From the NCBI GenBank assembly GCA_009602725.1, contig WELB01000188.1:195766-255145 (forward strand): a stretch of 59,380 nucleotides of DNA, read 5' to 3'. Positions within the stretch are counted from its first letter, which is position 1. Every line of letters begins with the position of its first letter. Under the pieces are notes generated by a model. It searched no databases. It was not told the DNA's origin and saw only the letters and a list, made by a program, of their open reading frames with translations. Made by a program: the position numbers and the translations under genes. This document shows, one piece after another, positions 2,506 through 51,100 of the stretch. This stretch comes from Spirogloea muscicola (Eukaryota; Streptophyta; Zygnematophyceae; Spirogloeales; Spirogloeaceae).

Positions 2506-3470
2506 TCAACTGTTGTACCTCTCGACTGAACCTCAATAGCAGCATTTGTAGAGTCCATGCTTGACTAGTATTGCTTCTCATCTACTTCCCGCCTTTCATC
2601 ATCGGGCATCTGCTCTTTGGGCACCAAGTCCCCTAGTCATTCAAATTACGGGAGACACAAGGACCCACGAGCATTCCCAACAAAATGGCATAAATGCACG
2701 TACATTAACGATCATCATCACATCACCACATCTAATAACAAAACAGTCCTCGCCCAGCAACAACAGATTTCTGGTCCGACCATCATTGCAATGTTTCTGC
2801 ACAAGATCTGCGTCTGGATCAAGCTGTGAGTGGAGGTTCTCAACAGGCCGTGAGCCTTGCAAATCGTGGCGGCAAGAGTTCGTGAGTGACTAGGTACTGC
2901 ATCATGCTCCACTGAAGATCCTCAAATTGCAGGGCTGGGTATGGAACTGAAGAGGAGAGCAACTGTTGCAAGAATGTATGAAGAGGCAGCTAAGCAAGGC
3001 CTCCTACTCCACATCTAAAATCGTCAAGCACGTCGTGTCACGTGTTGGGCATTCGGTTGCTAGAGTGCCACCTCTTGGGCCTCGAGTGACTAGACAATGT
3101 GGAGATGATGGCAATCGTGGCTACAGCACGTGTCCTATCACGCCGCCATCTATAGGCAACCGCCATACCATTGTCCACACTTTGTATTTGTTCTCAGTGA
3201 GGCTTGGACACCCAATTCTCAGAAATTCTTTGATTGCTATTTGAGCCATATCTGCCAAATCATTTTTGGCAGGGGGACCCTAGAATTGCACAGAGATGGT
3301 ACAAGCGGTTGCCTTGATGCTGCGCAGTTGAGCTGCCTCTTTGCCTAGCCATGGCATATCCCTAGAGGAATTCGCCTCAGCATAACGTGGGCAAGGGCGC
3401 TTGAAGGCGCGATGGCAGAAGTAGACTAAGAAGAGAGCAAAATCGCTAAGTGGGCCATTGGAAGCAGACA

Positions 3471-6400
3471 CTACCGCAGCACAGACATACGCTCCAGAAG
3501 CAGGCTCTGCTCAAATTGCCCATTTGAGATGGAGGCCTTCCTCAACTCCGGAATAAAGTGCGACATCTGAATGGTCAAGGTCTGGTGGAAAGCACAGAGG
3601 CACACAGTCTTTCAGCCAAAGCAAGGAAAACGCTCTCTGTAAAGACAGCCCATTGTTGAGCTGTCAGCAATAGCATTTCTGAAACGATAAGTCCAAGTAC
3701 TTGGTGCCATTGTTGTGGTCTGATAAGGCAGCATACGCAGCTGAAGGATGCACAGTGTCTCGAGTTGGTAATAACCAAAAGTAAGTCTATGTTCTAAGCA
3801 AGTCTGACATAAATAGACAACAGACAACAAACAAGATGAGATGTGCAATTAACAGCATGCCTTTGTTATACTCACTTCAAAACCATGGACAAGCTCGTCA
3901 TGAAAGGTCTGGTCATCCATGCCCATCAAGTTGACGTGTACAGCAAGTGCCATCTTGCATGTTGCAGTGAAGACCAGGATGGAGTCTACGAGCTCATGCA
4001 GCTCTCCAGAGCTTGTCCGCGATGAACGTGCAACCGAGTTGCTGCCATCTGTTGGGATGAGGAAAGCGCGGCACACCCCCATCACCCCGCTGTTTACCTG
4101 AACGGCCACGCTGCCCTGCAGCAACCTTTGGAGGGCCTGCACGGCACCAATCACATCAACATAAGTATTCTCCACCCTACTTTTTGCTACATTCCTGCCT
4201 CCACTCTTGAGCAAATCCCTTTGCCTGTTATTAAAATCCCAAGTGGGTCGTGCTATACCACCAGTGTGGCACGTTTGACATTCAATTCAACACTGAAATG
4301 ACAGATCCAAGAATTCAGTCCAAGATTGCATAGAAGCAATGCTGTTAGAAGTAGAGAACTGCTGGCAAACCTGCACGCGTTCTGGCAAGGGAGCAATCTC
4401 CTGGGCGTCGAGCTCGGCCCTCAGTGCCATCGTCCGAGAGCTAATCATGGACACCGCTCCTTGTACAGGCGTGAACTCTTGCAGCTGGGGCACGTAAGCA
4501 GCTACCCATACCATCAGCAGCAGGCCTCCCACTGCTCAGATGGCATGTTCACCAGCCAAGACGGAGTCCTTCCAGCAGTACATCAGAGCACAACCTGCTA
4601 GCAACTATCTCTACTTAGGATATCTTTCAGTCTCAAGGGCCAAGATCTAGATCAACCTGGTAGGAAGTAACTCGCAGGCGGTTGACGAGGCAAGGGAAGG
4701 AGGACTCTGTGCGCAGCACTGTCCGTCGCTTCCACTGGTTCTCAAGGCCGCCCTGTGACTTGCCATCCTTCGTGAAGGGCGTCTCAAATACAAAGCAGCG
4801 AACGGGAGCTTGGCAGTATACAACCTCGCCTTTTGCAACAGAGGACATGTATGTAACATCTGACTCCTCCTGGAGGGGCTCCACGGATGTAATCTGAACG
4901 TAGCAATGTGTCGGGTCCAGCTCATCCAGGTTGACCTGAATGCAAGGAATGGTTGATCATTGCCTGTGCAGTATGATTCGCACGAGACTTAAGAAATTTG
5001 CACCGGCAGTTTGTAGACGTGCATTAAATTATGAAAGCAATCCCAAGACTGACCTGTCGGGAGTCAGGAAGAAAGGACAGAGGGATGCTGCCACTGCTTG
5101 ATTGCTCGTGCACAGCTCTCATCTTCTTCATGATGTCACCAAGCCTGACTTCTGGTCCCTCCTTATAAATGAATTCTCTGCCCAGCAACAATACATACAA
5201 TGAGCTCATCGACTGGGCAAGCGAAGGCTCTGCCTTCGTGAGCCTTCAGTGTCACCACGCGTGTAATTCTTTCCTGGACACTCAGCTATGCTAGTTACTC
5301 AAATACCAAACAATTCATCTCGACAAGAAATAGGCTTCCAGCGAAGCAACCTTATAGGGGACTTAGAAACCCTCAATGATTAAGGCAACAGTACCTGAAA
5401 GCAAGCACTCCGAATTGGTCCCCATAAAAGCCTACGCGGTAGTAAGCCGCATCTTTGACAGGGATAAGATGAAGTTTCTGAAACATACAGAAGTGATACA
5501 ACACAGGGGTACAATCAGCATCACAGGATTCTACTCACTATTGCAATTTAATCTTCGCAAAATAGAGAGGATTAGTTCAGTAGACATGGTCACCTGCTCA
5601 GCCAGCCAAGCATAGTGCTTGCTCAACTCAAGCTCCATGAGTGAAACCTGCAGCAGCAGACAAGGTGAAGCAGGCACATGCAGATTCAGCGACAGTCAAG
5701 ATGCCCAACCAATCAGTCAGTCAGTCAAACCATCAATCAATCAACGTAACACTCAAATAGATTATATGAAATCAAGCATCCAGTCGAACTTGCATTCAGT
5801 CCGTCAATTAATCTCAGAAATCCTGTAAGAGGCATGAATAAGGCCATGCCGCAGAGTTCTGAGTGAACGGCAAAGAATGTCATCCAGATGAGCTGACTCA
5901 AGGCATCAGATGACCCAGCAGTGCATGCAGTGAAGCACATTAGAAGTAACCTGAACTTCGTCTAGTGAAGCACAGTATACAGGAAGAATGAGCTCAAGCA
6001 GGTATGCGCCAAAGTGCCTGAGTTCTGCCTTCACAAACAAATCATGAGCCATCTGCAGAAGAAGTAGACAAAGTCAGATGTGGTCCTTATAATCAGAAAT
6101 GTATATTCTGCAACACTGCAAACTGCTATAGAGACACATTAGCTTGCTTGACCTCAGACGCAAGATGTTTGCTTTCATCACAAGCCAATGCACTTGCAAA
6201 GGGCCACCAGCAAGCACCTGCATGTACTTGAGTGCAGCCTCTGCATTGAGCTTAGAGGCACCATAGCCATAGATCTCCATGTCTGCACAATGACAAGCTC
6301 CTCCATTGAGGCGCAACACAGGTCACCCACAAGTATGCACGCCCATCACCGTGTCATCAATCTCAACAACTTGCCCGCCTCTCTCTATCATGTGAAGTAG

Positions 6401-23100: not shown

Positions 23101-26100
23101 CTTGGCCCTTCAATCTCATCTTCCTCTCAGCAAGCTGCTGGGCTTGTCGTAGATGATTCTCCTCATATTCACGAATATTTGTTACCCCAACTGTCCTGCT
23201 GAACTCACGGTACACACTGTCTACAACTTGGTTGATCTCATCTTCAAGCTTTGCTATCGCCTTGCTTCGCAGGGCCATGGCCTTCTTCACCTGCATATAT
23301 GTATAGTTGATGTGCCATCACTTACAGAGCGTGGACAAACAATTTACACCATAGGATTGAGGAAAGTGTGTTGGCTTGGCCCTCAGGTACAGCAAAATAC
23401 AGCAGGGAAGGTGTAGTATAAAAGCTTGTAGTACTGTAGGCAATTTTCTCATCTGCAAGTTGCCCACAAGTTGCCCCTTACCATGTCAACTTCTGAGACA
23501 GGCTGTTGCTTGTGATCAGTGATAGTCTGCAACTCTATCTGGGTGCGCTGTACTTTATCTCCTGTGTGAAGCTGGAGTTATTGAGACCAGCATGCTCTCA
23601 GTCATGGGACTACGGCTGGGCTGGTCATACCGTCAGTGCTTTGACAAATTTACTTAACAGGAAATGCAAGTGACCAGCCAGAATTGTCAGCTCACAATGC
23701 CTTGGGCAAGAAAAGCAACAGAAGATGGTAATGGGCAGGTACCGTGCAGAGTATGATAGTCTGACAGGTCCATCGGATGTACCTGCTCTGTCTTGGCATA
23801 CTGGATTTTCCGCTCCAGATCACCAAGCTTCACAGAAAGTTCTTGCTCAAGCACCCGCATGCCTCTTGCAGACCCAAGATCAGCCAGCTCCTTCTCGTAC
23901 TGCTCTTTCTTAGCCTTGAGATCTGCACATGTAATTGCTGTCTTGTCAGTCGTCATGCTGATAATGCTGGAAGCTTTCGCTAATAGGTCATAATAGCAAG
24001 GTCACGGCCTGTTAGCTTGTACGCCACTGAGATGCTCATGGGCCTGGGTGTTAGCAGATTGTCCCTGCACTCAGTTTGCAGTAGATTTCTTACAGTAGAT
24101 AACCCCTAGCACATGGAAGCCTGGAATTCAGCTCCAGTGTGCCGTGCCCAACAAGGAAAGAATCCTCTCTCACTTGCAATTGCTTTCTCATCCCATCGCT
24201 GGGACTTTGAGTCCATGTTGCCACTGATGCCGCCAGTCATTGCGCCTGACTTGGAGAGGAGCGTCCCATCAAGTGCAACCACTGCAGCCAAAGCTGTGCT
24301 ACTTAGTCATATGTTTCTTATTGTCAATACCATGTCAAGATCAATACATGCAGCCTTCACGTGGTACTGAAAACATCACAATATTACTGCTCCTCATATG
24401 TGCATGGACCTTTGTGGCGCTCTGCTCCAAATGCTAAGGAACGGGCTTCCTCAACAGTATCACAGACAAGAGTGTTGCCAACTGCAAAAAGCATCGCTCT
24501 TTCGACGGAATTGTCAAATGTGCACCAGAAGGTCAAGGATGTCAGATTCACACTTGAAAACAGTCCTGCAAGCCTGCAGAAGTTACAATCTGAAGCTGCT
24601 GAACAAGCTCTGGCATACAGGCTAATGATTCCCATCTGTCAGACAGATTTATCTGTAAGATGTTGCCTACGCACAGCTAGCGGCACACTTGTGGTGATTC
24701 CGTGGTCTGGATATTGTATGACATCTATCATCAGCTTTGATGTCCTGCCCAGGGTCCGGAGTCGTTCCTGGACTGGTTTCACTCTGACCGATTGCAAGGG
24801 GATGAAGGTCATAGGTGGCTGCCGGTGGTTTTTGAGGTACTGCAAGCAGTGTCAGGTCGTTATTTATGTCAGATGTACAAAGCAAAAGCCAGTAGTGATG
24901 GTGCTTGTGGAGCTTCATGGAAGACGCAGCCAAGATGAAATACTCTATCAGATTTTACCTGGATGCACTCCTTTCCTGCCGTGTCATCCTCAACAACAAT
25001 AGCCTCCATCATCTTGCCCATCGCCACAGTCAAAGCCAGATTATACTTTTTCTGAGTTGGCCTGCACAAGTCTGTCATTCGCCCATGGACTCCAGAGAAC
25101 AGTCTCTTCATGGTGGTGACATTCTCAGCCATCTTGACATCTCGCTCACTCTCTTTCCTGTCAGCTTTCACATCCCGCAACTGTACTTCTAGGTCGTTCA
25201 GCTTTGTCAAGAGACCTTCACTTCGCGATCTGCGATAAGAGACATAGAGCATGGTCTTCAATATTGGAAAGCAAGCACGGCTCTTGGTACCTACATTGAG
25301 CCGTCAGCATTGCGTCTCTCTGTAATCAAACACATGCTGTCCAAGCCCAAATTTCTTGCATAACAAGTCAATGACAATGAAGTGCAAGGAAGATAAGAGG
25401 AGAGTCAGTGCTCACAGACTGACCTCTGCTTGCGTTGCCGCTCTTGTACTTCTGAGAGTTGACTTCTTATGTGCACTAACTCCTCCTCGGCAGCTGCCAA
25501 GTCTTGTGCCACTCGCTGCTTCCGATTCACAACCTGCTCCAGTTGAGCCTTCAGCTGCTGCTCGCGAGCAGTCTGCTGCTGTATGGTGGCCTCAAGGTTG
25601 TTTGCCACCGCCTGATCGACTTCTTGCTGCCTGTCCAGCACTTCTTTCTCCTGCCTCAAGGTGGAAGTCTTTGCCCCAGCCTCTGCCTTTCTGCATGCAA
25701 GCACACAGGAATGATGTCAAGCTGATAGAAAGCATGATCTATTCTGGAATGTAGACAGCAAGTCGTCGATGGAGTCAACGATCATAATGTGTGCGCGGCT
25801 TGGTGCTGATGAACTTACACGCGGTTGTATTCAGCTATCTGGCTCTCTGCAAGCTGCAACTCCTTGCCAGTCCCCTGACCTTGCTGCATCAGCTCCTCAA
25901 TCTGAGCCGTTGCACGCTCAAGGTCCTTCTGTAAGTCACCAATCTCCCTCTGCTTCCTCTCGTACTCGCTCGACTTGACTGCAAGCGCAGACTCCTCATT
26001 GCTGATGTGAAGCTGCAGACGCTTGACAGCTTCCTTGCACTTGAGCATATCTGGTTGCTGTACAGCCAGGCCATGGCAAGACCTGTCAGCATAACAAGCA

Positions 26101-27373
26101 CTGACCGCAACTGCATAGAGCACGGACACAGCATCAAGGACTCTGAACCAGCTGATGTACGTGCGTAAGTACCTGAACAGCTGTAAGACAGTGGACAGGC
26201 TCACCTTCTTGTCAATGTCGTTTTGCTTCTTCTTCATCGTCTTCTCACAGAGTAGGACTTCCTTCTGCCGACCGGCCTGCTCCTTCTTCAACTCCTTGAC
26301 CTGGCTGTCCAAAGTCCCCTGTTCCCCTTCTATTTGTCGAAGCTTGTCCATAGCGTCATCAACTTCCTCTTGGGTGCTGGCAATCTCTTTGTCATGGTTG
26401 AACAAATTCCACAGAGAGTGGCTAGACTTGAGGTTTAACTGCAAATTGTTGACAAGTGTGAAAGAGAGGTCTGAAACAATCTCCACTGAAGGCACACTTG
26501 TCTGTATGTATTGGCAACTGCAGATACACCAAGATCAGCAACTATGACTCTGTAGGCAACACAAGCTGATTGCAATCCACTTCACTCACAAGCTCCTTCT
26601 GCAATCTCAGATGGCGCTCCGCCTCGTCCTTCTGCTCTTTCTTTTGCTTCCTCTCAGACGCCATGTTCCTCTTCTTCTGGTAGCTGAGCAGCGTCGCTTC
26701 CTCGGCCTTGCCCTTTTTCTCTTCCAGCTCCTCATACTCCTTCTTCAGCTCCTCAGACCCAGAAATTTGCTCAAAGAGCATCATGAGCTCCTTGGCCGAC
26801 CTTGACGCAATGGATTCCACGTCACCCTGCAATCAACAACAATGAGTCCAAGTGATAATAGAAGACAGACCAGCGCACTCATGAGAGTAGACACGGCAAT
26901 GTGCGAGCTGCAGGCCTGGCAAAAATTTAAACCTGGAAGACCAGAAAGTTGCGAGCCTTGACAAGGATTCCGATGGAGCGCATATGCGCATTGTAGTCCT
27001 CCCAGGATACGCTCCTGCCGTTTACTTTGTACTCACTGGTGCCGCCACCAGTTACCGACCTCGCGAAAGTTAGCTCTTCCCCTGTGACCGTCCTGTAGAC
27101 GAGCTTAACGGAGCCCTTGCGGCCTCTCTCGTTACGCTCGCTGTCGTCGAAGGCGTAGATGAGGTCCTTGAGCTGGCTGCCCCGGAGCTGCATGGACTTG
27201 ACGCCGAGCACGAAGCTGATTGCGTCCATGAGGTTCGACTTGCCGGCGCCATTGGGCCCGATGATGGCAGTGAAGGTCTTGAAGGGACCGATCACTTGGT
27301 GGCCCTTGTAGGACTTGAAGTTGTCCACCTCGAGCCGGTGGATGCTGCCACGGGCCAGCTCCATCGACGGCAT
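20195..27373 (-). CDS. SMC1: Cohesin subunit SMC1
   Basis: SMC1 pairs with SMC3 in the cohesin ring that holds sister chromatids. Nineteen exons join in frame to 1236 residues, the normal length: 27373-26933, 26826-26590, 26438-26205, 26057-25819, 25690-25424, 25229-24959, 24839-24715, 24519-24410, 24281-24174, 23922-23783, 23571-23482, 23290-23082, 22953-22784, 22603-22494, 22320-22123, 21830-21613, 21350-21099, 20734-20489 and 20240-20195. Domains in order are Walker A (GPNGAGKSN, exon 1), a coiled coil, the hinge ([11 protein letters not shown] to SGAMTGG, exons 6-9), a second coiled coil, the ABC signature LSGGEKT (exon 17) and Walker [13 protein letters not shown] (exon 18). The tiny last exon supplies [10 protein letters not shown]. 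If it were skipped, a TAA at 20487-20485 would end the protein early. A second ATG at 27364 is an equally possible start. Intron 7 (24520-24714) is AT-AC and is listed separately. Confidence 0.95.
24520..24714 (-). other. U12-type AT-AC intron in SMC1
   Basis: Read on the minus strand, the intron begins ATATCCAGAC at 24714 and ends GGTGCAC at 24520. The element TCCTTGAC (24539-24532) matches the U12 branch-site consensus, with its adenosine 13 bases from the intron end. Splicing joins GATGTCATACA to ATTTGACAAT and gives [13 protein letters not shown], which fits plant SMC1 with no gap. Both flanking exons keep phase (125 and 110 bases). No GT-AG pair gives an equally conserved join: the nearest alternative (GT after ACCACAA, AG before GACTG) keeps frame but inserts about 25 extra residues. 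The donor departs from the full ATATCCTT consensus at positions 7 and 8. Confidence 0.85.
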
Positions 27374-28206: not shown

Positions 28207-28741
28207 GCAGTGCCGGGCTCGTCGGTAAAGTCGGTAAACCGACACTAGCTGCGTCGACAGCCAGACGGCCGGCGGGGGGGCCCGCGGGCGGCGGCAATCC
28301 CGAGGGCGCGCGCGGCCGCGGCCGACACGACGGGGAACCATCCGCCTGCGTCTGGTCAGACCACCTGGGGGGCATTCATCCACGGTTTCGATTCCGCACC
28401 CCCGGAGCGCTCCCCTCCAAGTAGCTATTACCGGCAGGGCCGGCGTGGCGGATATTTACCCCAACCCCCAGGTGGGGGGCTTATCCGGCGACACCTTGCC
28501 CTGTCGGTAGGCCGGCGAGTTCGAGGCGGAGGAGGGGGGGAGGAGGGAGGTGGGCGTGCATGGAGCCGCCCTCCATGGCTGGGTCCCCGCCTCCTCCGCC
28601 CGGAGCGGGCAGCCCGGCCGCTGACCCCCCCCACCTCGGAGCTCCGGCGCCATCCCCACTTCTCCCCGCCCCCCTTCGCCTCTCCGCCGCCTCCGCCGCC
28701 GCCGCCGCCGCCGCCGCGGCGCCCGCCCGACGTCGTCGCCG

Positions 28742-29511
28742 NNNNNNNNNNNNNNNNNNNNNNNNNNNNNNNNNNNNNNNNNNNNNNNNNNNNNNNNNNN
28801 NNNNNNNNNNNNNNNNNNNNNNNNNNNNNNNNNNNNNNNNNNNNNNNNNNNNNNNNNNNNNNNNNNNNNNNNNNNNNNNNNNNNNNNNNNNNNNNNNNNN
28901 NNNNNNNNNNNNNNNNNNNNNNNNNNNNNNNNNNNNNNNNNNNNNNNNNNNNNNNNNNNNNNNNNNNNNNNNNNNNNNNNNNNNNNNNNNNNNNNNNNNN
29001 NNNNNNNNNNNNNNNNNNNNNNNNNNNNNNNNNNNNNNNNNNNNNNNNNNNNNNNNNNNNNNNNNNNNNNNNNNNNNNNNNNNNNNNNNNNNNNNNNNNN
29101 NNNNNNNNNNNNNNNNNNNNNNNNNNNNNNNNNNNNNNNNNNNNNNNNNNNNNNNNNNNNNNNNNNNNNNNNNNNNNNNNNNNNNNNNNNNNNNNNNNNN
29201 NNNNNNNNNNNNNNNNNNNNNNNNNNNNNNNNNNNNNNNNNNNNNNNNNNNNNNNNNNNNNNNNNNNNNNNNNNNNNNNNNNNNNNNNNNNNNNNNNNNN
29301 NNNNNNNNNNNNNNNNNNNNNNNNNNNNNNNNNNNNNNNNNNNNNNNNNNNNNNNNNNNNNNNNNNNNNNNNNNNNNNNNNNNNNNNNNNNNNNNNNNNN
29401 NNNNNNNNNNNNNNNNNNNNNNNNNNNNNNNNNNNNNNNNNNNNNNNNNNNNNNNNNNNNNNNNNNNNNNNNNNNNNNNNNNNNNNNNNNNNNNNNNNNN
29501 NNNNNNNNNNN
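28742..29511. other. Assembly gap (770 N)
   Basis: An unbroken run of N lies between a GCC triplet tract and a C-rich tract. Open frames that cross it are artefacts. The gap probably hides the 5' part of the downstream membrane-protein gene. Confidence 0.99.
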
Positions 29512-29910
29512 CCCCCCCCTTGCTCTTTGTCCCTCTCCGCCTCCTCTTTCCCATTTACTTTCCCAATTTTGGTGAGGCAACTCATCTCTCCCACATCCAC
29601 CCTCATTCAATCTTCACCCTGTCCCTCCTACTCCTTCACCCTCTTCCTCTCGCATACCCCTCTTCCTCGCCCTCCTTCCCTCCCTCCCCATTCCTACTGT
29701 CGTGCCCCTCTTCTCCCACTGCCCCAAGCTTCTTGTCCATTCCTTCCGTCAGTCCCCCTCACTCATAAACCCCCCCTCCCCCCCAACCCCTTCCCCGCCA
29801 TATCTCCCACCCCCACTTTCGGGCGCTCGCAAGTGCGACAGTCAAGACTGACCTGTTTGTGACGGTAGTAACATGAGCTGACGACGGAGCACCGCCGTCT
29901 TGCCTCGCAG

Positions 29911-48168: not shown

Positions 48169-51100
48169 TCAGAGCTTGGCATAGACACCATCCCCTTCCA
48201 TGGAGCTGGCTGCTGCAGGCGCCCAGGTGCTCTTGAACTGGTCCTCTGTCACACCTGCTCGCATGGGTGCACAAGAGCAAAGCATCAGCTGCTCCGACCC
48301 CTTGCAGTCACTGCTCCTAGTGCTGACGAGCCGGCATGAATGCCCAAAGTCGTCAAGAAGCCTCGTTCAAGGAGCGGCTTGTCGAGCAGCACAGTGCATG
48401 TTGCAGCCTTTGGGATGCAAGTTGTCAGGATCAGATAGCCATCTTGTCAATCTTGCAGTACTGACCCTTGCCCATGGCGGCAGTGGACGAAATGCCGCCC
48501 GTCACCGTCTTCATCAGCGAGTCATAATAATTGGCGCCAGACCATGTCTGGTGCGCCAGCGTCTCGACGGCGCCAGTACGCTCTGGTCGCTGGATGTCCT
48601 GCACAGCCCAAAGCACAAAGACACCATGTCAGCCACAAGTACGAGAGCATCTGGAACGAGCTGGGCTGCGCTTGAAATGGCAATGGTAGTGCGTCTGACT
48701 CCAGATCCCAGGCCAAGCGAGGCATCCAAAGCTCTTAAATTGTGAAAGGGCTGCTGGCTAGAGTGGCTCACCTGGACATAGGCGAGCATGCCGCGCTGCA
48801 CGTAGTCGCGGGCAAACATGTCGGTGATGAGCGCATCGGCGTGGAAGCCGGCCAGCGTGATGAACTGCCAGACGTAGCCCATCTTGGCCAGCGCTGGGAT
48901 GTAGTCCGCCATCTGCGGGCAGGGCCGGCCAGAGCGCACCGGTGACAGTCAGCCAAGCAGTAACCGAGCCCCCACCAAAGCTAAGGGCAACAGCCGCAGC
49001 CGATGCACACTGCTTGATGCGAAGCAATCGCAGGCCAGGGGGCCAGATCTCGTGGGAGCGGCGCAGGATTATGGGGTGATCTTTCTTTCTGGAATGACAA
49101 GTCATTTACATAAGAGCTATTATGCAAACGAGCTAACATAAGAGTACATACGAGAAGTGACCAGAATGTTAAGGGGCGGACCTGCTGGTCAGTCATGCCC
49201 GACGCGTCCCAGTTGAAGGAGGGCGAGTTGTTGTAGGCCAGCATGGCCCAGGGGCAGCGTGCGCGCACGCCCTCGGCAAAGTCGCGCGCCTCGTGCACGT
49301 CGGGCTTGGCCGTCTCCATCCAGATGAGGTCGGCGTGCGGCGCGAAGGCGGCGGCGCGCGCGATGGCCGCCTTGACGCCGCCCTGGAAGCGGTAGTAGCC
49401 CTCGCGGGTGCGCGCTGCGTCCCAGTCCCAGAACACGGCGGGCGCGCCCAGCTTGGACGCCAGCGCGCGCGCCTCGTGGTGCGCCTTGCCCTCTGACTGC
49501 GCGAACCACTCGTCCAGGCGGCGCGCCTTCTCGCCCTCGGGGATGCCCAGCTTGCGAATGGCGTCCGCCACCGCGTCGGCGTACAGCCGCAGGTCCGCCG
49601 ACGCCAGCCACTTGTCCTCCAGCGCTGCCGCAGCGCAGCAGCAAAGGGCAGAGATAGGTCAGGCGAGAGCCCATCTTCTGGACCAACGACACAAGAACGT
49701 CTACGCCGACAAGCACCGGAGCCAGCAGTCATGGCCGCCAGCAACTTGCAACTGGGCGCAGCACCTTGGAGCTCGGGCCCGGTCTTGCCGGCGGCCTGCG
49801 CGTCGTTGAGGACCTCCACCAGGCTCTGCGCCAGGTGGGGGTTGGTGTTGCCCAGGATGAAAGAGTGGTCGCGGGGGTCGATGTTGGTCATGATCAGCGT
49901 CGCCGCCTCCGAGTCCGTCCGCGCAATCAGCACTTGCTCCACGCCCATGATGTCAAACTGCGCGCCGGGCGCACCCACGTCAGAGTCAGCTCCACAACGG
50001 CGAAGCCAACTCAAAGATCAAGGCCAAGATCGAGTCAAGGCCGTCTGCATGCATGTCCCTAGAGGGTTAACAGCAGATCAGAGTCCGGTGGATCCCAGTG
50101 GCGGGCGTCAGGACCAGGCACCGGTTGACAGTTGATCAGAGTCTGGCGGATCCCAGTGGCGGGCGTCAGGACCAGGCACCGGCTGACCGATTCATCTGCA
50201 GGCCCTCCGACAGCCGTCTCCGCGAGCGGCCGGCGCTCACCTGCAGGCGGGCAGCCACCAGGCGGTTGACGTGCTCCGACGTGGCAACCAGGACCTTGCC
50301 GGCCATATGCCCGCACTTCTTGGTGACCGACGCCTGGTCCTCCATGTGGATGCCCGCCGCGCCCCGCTCCACAAACATTTTCACGAGCTTCACCGTCGCG
50401 CTGATGCCGCCGAAGCCCGTGTCGCCGTCGGCAATGAGCGGCGCCAGGTAGTCAATGTACGGCGTCTTGGCCCGCTGCTCCCGGGTCATGCTGCAGACAA
50501 CACGCCCAGCAGCGGCGTCAGATGACGTCTGGATCTGCAACTCAATTGACGGACTGGACACTGCCGCCGCTGCCTCAATCATCCGTGACCGTGCCAAACG
50601 TGACGGTGGAGACAACTGTGCTCATCAATACAATCTTGACATTGACGCGACTGAGATGATCGTGATGTATGGTGTTGATGATGTGATGTTCTCCATGGCT
50701 CTGAATGATATAAATGAGCAGCTGCAAGTTGACAGTAGTTGTGATCGAAGTGACGACCGAAACAATCAAGATTATCATATTGTTGGTCCCAATTTCCCGT
50801 ACGCCAGGCCCAGATCCCAGCCAAGCGGGGCGGTCAGTGGGCCGGCGCACGAACCTCATGCGGGCCTCCTTCTGCTTGCGGTCGTGGAAGAGCTGCGCCA
50901 GGAACAGGTGCTCGACCTTGTTGGGCACGGTGTCCATGGGGTAGTCGGCGAGGTCGGGGCCCGGCTCGTTGGACGACGACGCCGTGGAGGCGCACTGCCA
51001 CCCAGAGACGTAGATCGTGTCCAGGTACTTGGCCATCTGCGCCACCTGGACGGGGTCCAGCGACCCGAAGGTGCGCGAGGCGGTGCCGCCGGCCTGGTGC

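Follow-up and report, generated by a model that had tools for sequence, protein, structure and literature searches.

A U12-type AT-AC intron in a cohesin SMC1 gene of a streptophyte alga, most likely Spirogloea muscicola

Does a green alga hold an intron of the minor, U12-type class in its SMC1 gene, and does it keep the spliceosome that would remove such an intron? The question is raised by a 195-nt segment within a stretch of 59,380 nucleotides (the window), which an earlier note, made from the letters alone, had read as an AT-AC intron of SMC1. We conclude, with high confidence, that this is a genuine U12-type AT-AC intron in the cohesin SMC1 gene of a streptophyte alga. The genome is triplicated, and its owner is most likely Spirogloea muscicola, a zygnematophyte. 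The intron itself is very nearly certain, and both the intron and the snRNAs that accompany it are of a known kind.

The SMC1 intron and its signals

The U12-type AT-AC intron occupies positions 24520..24714 of the window on the minus strand, is 195 nt long and lies in phase 2. Its 5' splice site, ATATCCAGAC (24705..24714, minus strand), carries an ATATCC core. Its branch site, TCCTTGAC (24532..24539, minus strand), places the branch A at 24533, 13 nt from the intron end, and the 3' splice site reads GCAC (24520..24523, minus strand). In minus-strand context, the exon letters GATGTCATACA adjoin the intron start ATATCCAGACC, and the intron end ATCCTTGACCTTCTGGTGCAC adjoins the exon letters ATTTGACAATTCC. 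The donor, branch site and GCAC end, as well as the coordinates 24714-24520, had all been given in the earlier note and hold on rechecking. The intron combines AT-AC ends (GT-AG ends would also qualify as U12-type) and an RTATCC donor with a TCCTTRAC branch site near the 3' end, the latter in all three copies of the gene. Positions +7 to +9 of the donor are AGA or AAA in the SMC1 copies and differ from the usual TTT consensus, which is not obligatory for every U12-type intron.

Both flanking exons encode the SMC1 hinge and are placed by PDB match, homeolog alignment and frame. The upstream exon (24715..24839, minus strand) ends in ...SKLMIDVI plus CA, and the downstream exon (24410..24519, minus strand) starts with (Q)FDNSVERAM. 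Ordinary GT-AG introns, located by the frame of the neighbouring exons, precede and follow this pair: one of 119 nt (24840..24958, minus strand) and one of 128 nt with the donor GTCCATGC (24282..24409, minus strand). Once the 195 nt and these two introns are removed, four consecutive exons form a single frame, which bears out the proposal that the flanking exons stay in phase. Among PDB chains, those of cohesin SMC1 are the leading matches of the spliced hinge (best E 2.2e-26), with bacterial SMC, SMC2 and SMC4 behind them. The N-terminal ATPase part of the same gene (26933..27349, minus strand; Pfam SMC_N) likewise has cohesin SMC1A as its best PDB match (E 2.7e-39).

Elsewhere in the window, a CCG-repeat-rich stretch at 28249-29862 contains long open frames (316 to 537 aa) that overlap in several frames on both strands; the one long frame tested there has no Pfam match. 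An isocitrate lyase exon (PF00463, E 2.1e-21) lies at 49193-50017 on the minus strand and is the sole Pfam match among the ten long window frames scanned.

Conservation across three SMC1 copies

A genome search finds the SMC1 locus in three copies, namely in the window and at two further loci, L015 (89% identical) and L016 (86%). The intron measures 195, 199 and 221 nt in the three. Identical columns number 121 of 126 in the exon before the donor and 95 of 105 in the exon after it. Within the intron, all three copies agree at 9 of the first 10 bases, at 8/8 columns of the branch site and at the last three bases (3/3). The intron middle is identical at 122 of 191 columns, and the stretch between the branch site and the intron end at 5 of 9. 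All three copies thus preserve the donor core, branch site and acceptor, while the length and interior of the intron drift.

If the intron were retained, each of the three copies would run into an in-frame stop 25 to 40 codons beyond the donor, so SMC1 would depend on the minor spliceosome. The earlier proposal that expression of SMC1 requires minor splicing is therefore soundly argued, as far as the three sequences speak to it.

Minor spliceosomal snRNA genes

Rfam searches of the genome return U12 (three matches, best 81.1 bits, cut-off 53), U11 (four matches, best 59.6 bits, cut-off 39) and U6atac (three matches, best 85.5 bits, cut-off 33). The three snRNA genes taken as the mark of a minor spliceosome are all in the genome, which is accordingly not devoid of minor-spliceosome components. 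Together with two further AT-AC U12 introns described below, they support the claim that the alga retains this machinery. U12 retains ATGAGTAAGGAAAA, the complement of the branch site; close to its 5' end, U11 retains AAAGGG. An upstream ATCCCA promoter-like element is present at all nine loci inspected (L001-L009, covering U11, U12 and U6atac with the fourth U11 match excluded). In the U11 and U12 genes it lies at -75 or -76; in U6atac it is about 8 nt nearer, at -67 or -68. In plants, snRNA promoters for Pol II differ in spacing from those for Pol III, and the shift of ATCCCA in U6atac recalls this difference.

The snRNA search that the earlier note had proposed thus accounts for three of the four minor snRNAs, U11, U12 and U6atac. 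It yields no Rfam match for U4atac among the 48 candidates scored out of 1771, with a silent control. A U4atac pattern derived from the predicted U6atac partner gives one match (L010), equal to the control; this locus was rejected as U4atac, having no U4atac score and no ATCCCA seen in its upstream letters. U4atac and specific minor-spliceosome proteins are presumably present as well.

A divergent block in U6atac

The three U6atac copies (L007, L008 and L009, on contigs C40, C294 and C69) all start with GUGUUCGUUGAGCCGAGAGAAGG, where the Rfam consensus has GUGUUGUaUGAAAGGAGAGAAGG. The U6atac block pairing with the 5' splice site is not canonical: it reads AGCCGA in 3/3 copies, against AAAGGA in the consensus. 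The first 66 nt are identical at 66/66 positions in the three copies, while the flanks are identical at 53/100 positions upstream and 15/100 downstream. Because the 66 identical 5' nucleotides stand amid diverged flanks, the block is constrained rather than decayed.

Canonical AAAGGA would pair with donor positions +9 to +4. In every intron family, SMC1 and the two antiporter introns, the algal AGCCGA pairs at +4 and +5 and mismatches +6 and +7; it pairs again at +8/+9 in the antiporter introns only. Of the two blocks, AAAGGA is the better fit to the donors. The pairing of U11 with each donor is that expected of a human-type U11, and with the SMC1 donor it is short because +7 to +9 are not TTT.

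The search for a compensating partner of the U6atac block covered U12, U11, the intron and the remainder of U6atac, and established none. Two candidates were rejected: a helix with U12 (-15.3 kcal/mol) is equalled by 28% of shuffled blocks, and for intron positions +7 to +15, taken in a fixed register, 8% to 30% of shuffles are equally good. Predicted helices of the block with U11 and with the rest of U6atac reach -8.6 and -8.1 kcal/mol, respectively, both as raw energies.

We tentatively suggest, as a possibility that falls short of even chances, that U6atac in this alga gave up its canonical helix with the U12-type 5' splice site. AGCCGA would be kept unchanged by selection, the introns would keep RUAUCC for U11, and recognition of the donor at the catalytic stage would use two base pairs (+4 and +5) plus proteins or an unknown partner. 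A hidden gene offers another explanation: the three loci may not be the working U6atac, and a canonical AAAGGA copy may sit in sequence missing from the assembly, which has gaps. We consider this unlikely, though worth weighing, since the better fit of the donors to AAAGGA speaks for it. On the other hand, the known copies have the ATCCCA promoter-like element, a 3' U-run and the invariant 66/66 bases, the model search of the genome gave these three loci alone, and any second gene must then have escaped the assembly in all three copies of the genome.

A U6atac decoupled from the donor, if true, would conflict with results from mammals, where U6atac pairing is needed. According to passages of PMC4980772, altering the donor at +5/+6 in mammalian cells called for corresponding changes in both U11 (6/7) and U6atac (14/15), and the requirement for U6atac pairing is stated in a title cited in PMC3584512. 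A natural U6atac whose block mismatches its own introns would make the dispensability or replacement of this pairing testable.

Further U12-type introns

Two antiporter genes found via PF00999 (L064 and L065, on contigs C90 and C155) each contain two AT-AC introns with U12 signals, at L064:1360-1706 and 3390-3536 and at the equivalent places in L065. The first (ATATCCTCTTA...TTCCTTGACTCCCCTGTGCCTCAC) measures 347 and 370 nt in the two copies, and the second (ATATCCTTTCA...GTCCTTGACACAAGCCCAC) 147 and 149 nt. One antiporter intron has a perfect ATATCCTTT donor, and positions +7 to +9 of the antiporter donors are TTT or TCT. PDB matches to NHE1 (E 9.1e-5), NHE6 (2.2e-4) and NHE9 identify the gene, at the level of sequence, as NHE/NHX-type, and from reading we would call it NHX5/6-like. 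The first splice is predicted to give PPIIY/WSGFSL (the slash marks the junction), gap-free against NHE6 in a stretch that is weak alone (i-Evalue 0.084). The second gives VALLCAL/LFKYAGLSVYK, with one residue different in the other copy. All three intron families, SMC1 and the two in the antiporter gene, are AT-AC with TCCTTGAC. No recognisable U12 intron was found in the other antiporter genes examined, which were the first NHX candidates and one of which is KefC-like.

The antiporter genes form triplets in the PF00999 search, and the U11 and antiporter triplets sit on the same three contigs. Genes in threes recur throughout the searches, for example on contigs C42/C8/C39 and C188/C115/C98.

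Four whole-genome motif scans recovered the three SMC1 copies and no further validated intron among the matches inspected. RTATCC..TTCCTTAAC gave one match (20 in the reversed control, about 5 expected by a Markov estimate), and TATC..TTCCTTAAC gave 33 against 127 in the reversed control, with no excess. ATATCC..WTCCTTRAC gave 28 matches, three of them SMC1, against 10 in the reversed control, and GTATCC..WTCCTTRAC gave 21 against 30 in its own reversed control. Inspection by eye of 20 of the 25 non-SMC1 ATATCC matches led to their rejection, two clusters resembling repeats without coding capacity and the rest having no convincing coding flanks. Among the GTATCC matches (19 of 21 inspected by eye, and rejected), TCCTTGAC seems to be coding in L043/44, L048/49 and L050/51 (e.g. 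I-L-D-E-A-D), and L045-47 look like an ordinary exon end. A near-extinction of minor introns in this genome was considered and withdrawn once the antiporter introns were found; these fall outside the scanned lengths and have a different branch-site letter.

Streptophyte affinity and known minor splicing in algae

The earlier note had set the find against Chlamydomonas-like chlorophytes. This contrast is not supported: the plastid protein PsaB indicates a streptophyte, and PsaA does so with less clarity. In a comparison of PsaB (contig C392) with PDB chains, the top four score 1623-1627 bits; we take these to be moss chains, 6l35 presumably being from Physcomitrium. Chains that we assign to seed plants follow at 1529-1594 bits, and those that we assign to chlorophytes, 6zzx, 6igz and 6ijj among them, score 1524 or less. 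The lowest seed-plant and highest chlorophyte scores are 5 bits apart, the organism labels being presumed and several chains being unassigned. PsaA has the same three moss-like leaders, followed by seed plants mixed with Chlamydomonas. The plastid proteins are thus not nearest to those of chlorophytes, which is clear at the top of the list for PsaB and less so for PsaA. Eight short psaA/psaB-like fragments, some with stops, lie outside C392 (on C74, C93, C136, C17, C22, C36, C148 and C132) and are possibly plastid DNA moved to the nucleus.

The genome looks triplicated from its sequence, and a recent whole-genome triplication of Spirogloea muscicola, a zygnematophyte, is mentioned in passages of PMC10487979. 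It is very improbable that the organism, green alga though it is, represents a chlorophyte in which the minor spliceosome has unexpectedly survived. The presence of Chlamydomonas among the seed plants below the top three PsaA chains would agree with such an origin, but those three chains are the same moss-like ones, and PsaB places presumed land-plant chains above presumed chlorophyte chains. Moreover, the three SMC1 homeologs, three U12 genes, three U6atac genes and antiporter triplets fit the triplicated S. muscicola as these passages portray it (PMC10487979).

For a streptophyte, retention of minor introns is expected rather than surprising, because Chara braunii and Klebsormidium nitens are already reported to have them (excerpts of PMC10639083). 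Where U12 introns were earlier declared absent from green algae, the basis is Chlamydomonas, in the portion of PMC2846911 consulted. The combination of SMC1 with a U12 intron was not found in the main texts of the open-access library searched. Terms for minor splicing and for zygnematophytes or Spirogloea co-occur there in PMC12027700 and in PMC6865273, in the latter with the algal term in the reference list. With the present locus, minor splicing probably reaches a zygnematophyte, a member of the algal group nearest to land plants, and is linked to an essential cohesin gene through each of its three copies.

Alternative splices at the AT-AC boundary

Human SMC1A alone leaves the boundary undecided because the human protein has one extra residue in the hinge loop. 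Among 171 in-frame, stop-free splice pairs scored by this alignment, AT-AC 24714/24520 reaches 186, and 4 of the other 170 score higher (187 to 192): another AT-AC pair (192), a GT-AG pair (188), a GT-AC pair (188) and a GC-AG pair (187). Pfam SMC_hinge ranks the AT-AC splice best, at 47.2 bits; the four other splices compared with it reach 43.1, 36.4, 39.6 and 39.9. There are 57 in-frame, stop-free pairs at the same alignment columns in all three SMC1 copies. None of these with GT-AG or GC-AG ends keeps FDNSVER, in line with the earlier claim that no GT-AG choice fits.

Across both window strands, a single RTATCC is accompanied by a TCCTTRAC-like site at a distance of up to 700 nt. When the branch site must be exact and the end YAC/YAG, the window has one such combination, whereas 100 Markov-simulated windows have 0.2 on average. 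At least one exact donor/branch-site pair occurs in 18 of the 100 simulated windows, so motif co-occurrence is weak evidence alone. The case for the AT-AC intron is carried by the frame and the homeologs, the homeologs being strongest, and the SMC_hinge score adds to it. A U2-type GT-AG or GC-AG intron with slightly shifted ends and coincidental AT-AC motifs is extremely improbable: such pairs do edge past AT-AC in the SMC1A scoring (188 and 187 vs 186), but the best GT-AG pair, 24688/24497, has no GT in either homeolog, deletes NSVER and is the one scored 43.1 by SMC_hinge, and FDNSVER is lost in every conserved pair of this kind.

Proposed splicing and comparison with known systems

We infer from these sequences that the SMC1 intron is spliced by the minor spliceosome. 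U11 would pair with UCC at +4 to +6 of the SMC1 donor and U12 (GUAAGGA) with UCCUUGAC at the branch site, after which a U4atac/U6atac.U5 particle would join. The intron would leave as a lariat, restoring the frame of the hinge. If minor splicing failed, translation would stop inside the intron, and full-length SMC1 from any of the three copies would need this machinery.

The AT-AC U12 introns of land plants, Chara and Klebsormidium share with those described here the AT-AC ends, the ATATCC donor core and a TCCTTRAC branch site placed 10-15 nt before the intron ends, as well as the U11, U12 and U6atac genes. The alga differs in that all three intron families use TCCTTGAC, with G before the branch A, and in that the SMC1 donor has no TTT at +7 to +9. 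Animals and plants share two U12 positions in Na+/H+ antiporter genes, according to sections of PMC2426677; the NHE/NHX gene of this genome also has two AT-AC U12 introns. The human U6atac suppressor GG14/15CC, as presented in passages of PMC4980772, alters the same block that diverges here, the alga having G12 C13 C14 G15 where human U6atac has A12 A13 G14 G15. The suppressor acts on introns mutated to match it, whereas the algal donors keep CC at +5/+6 (PMC4980772).
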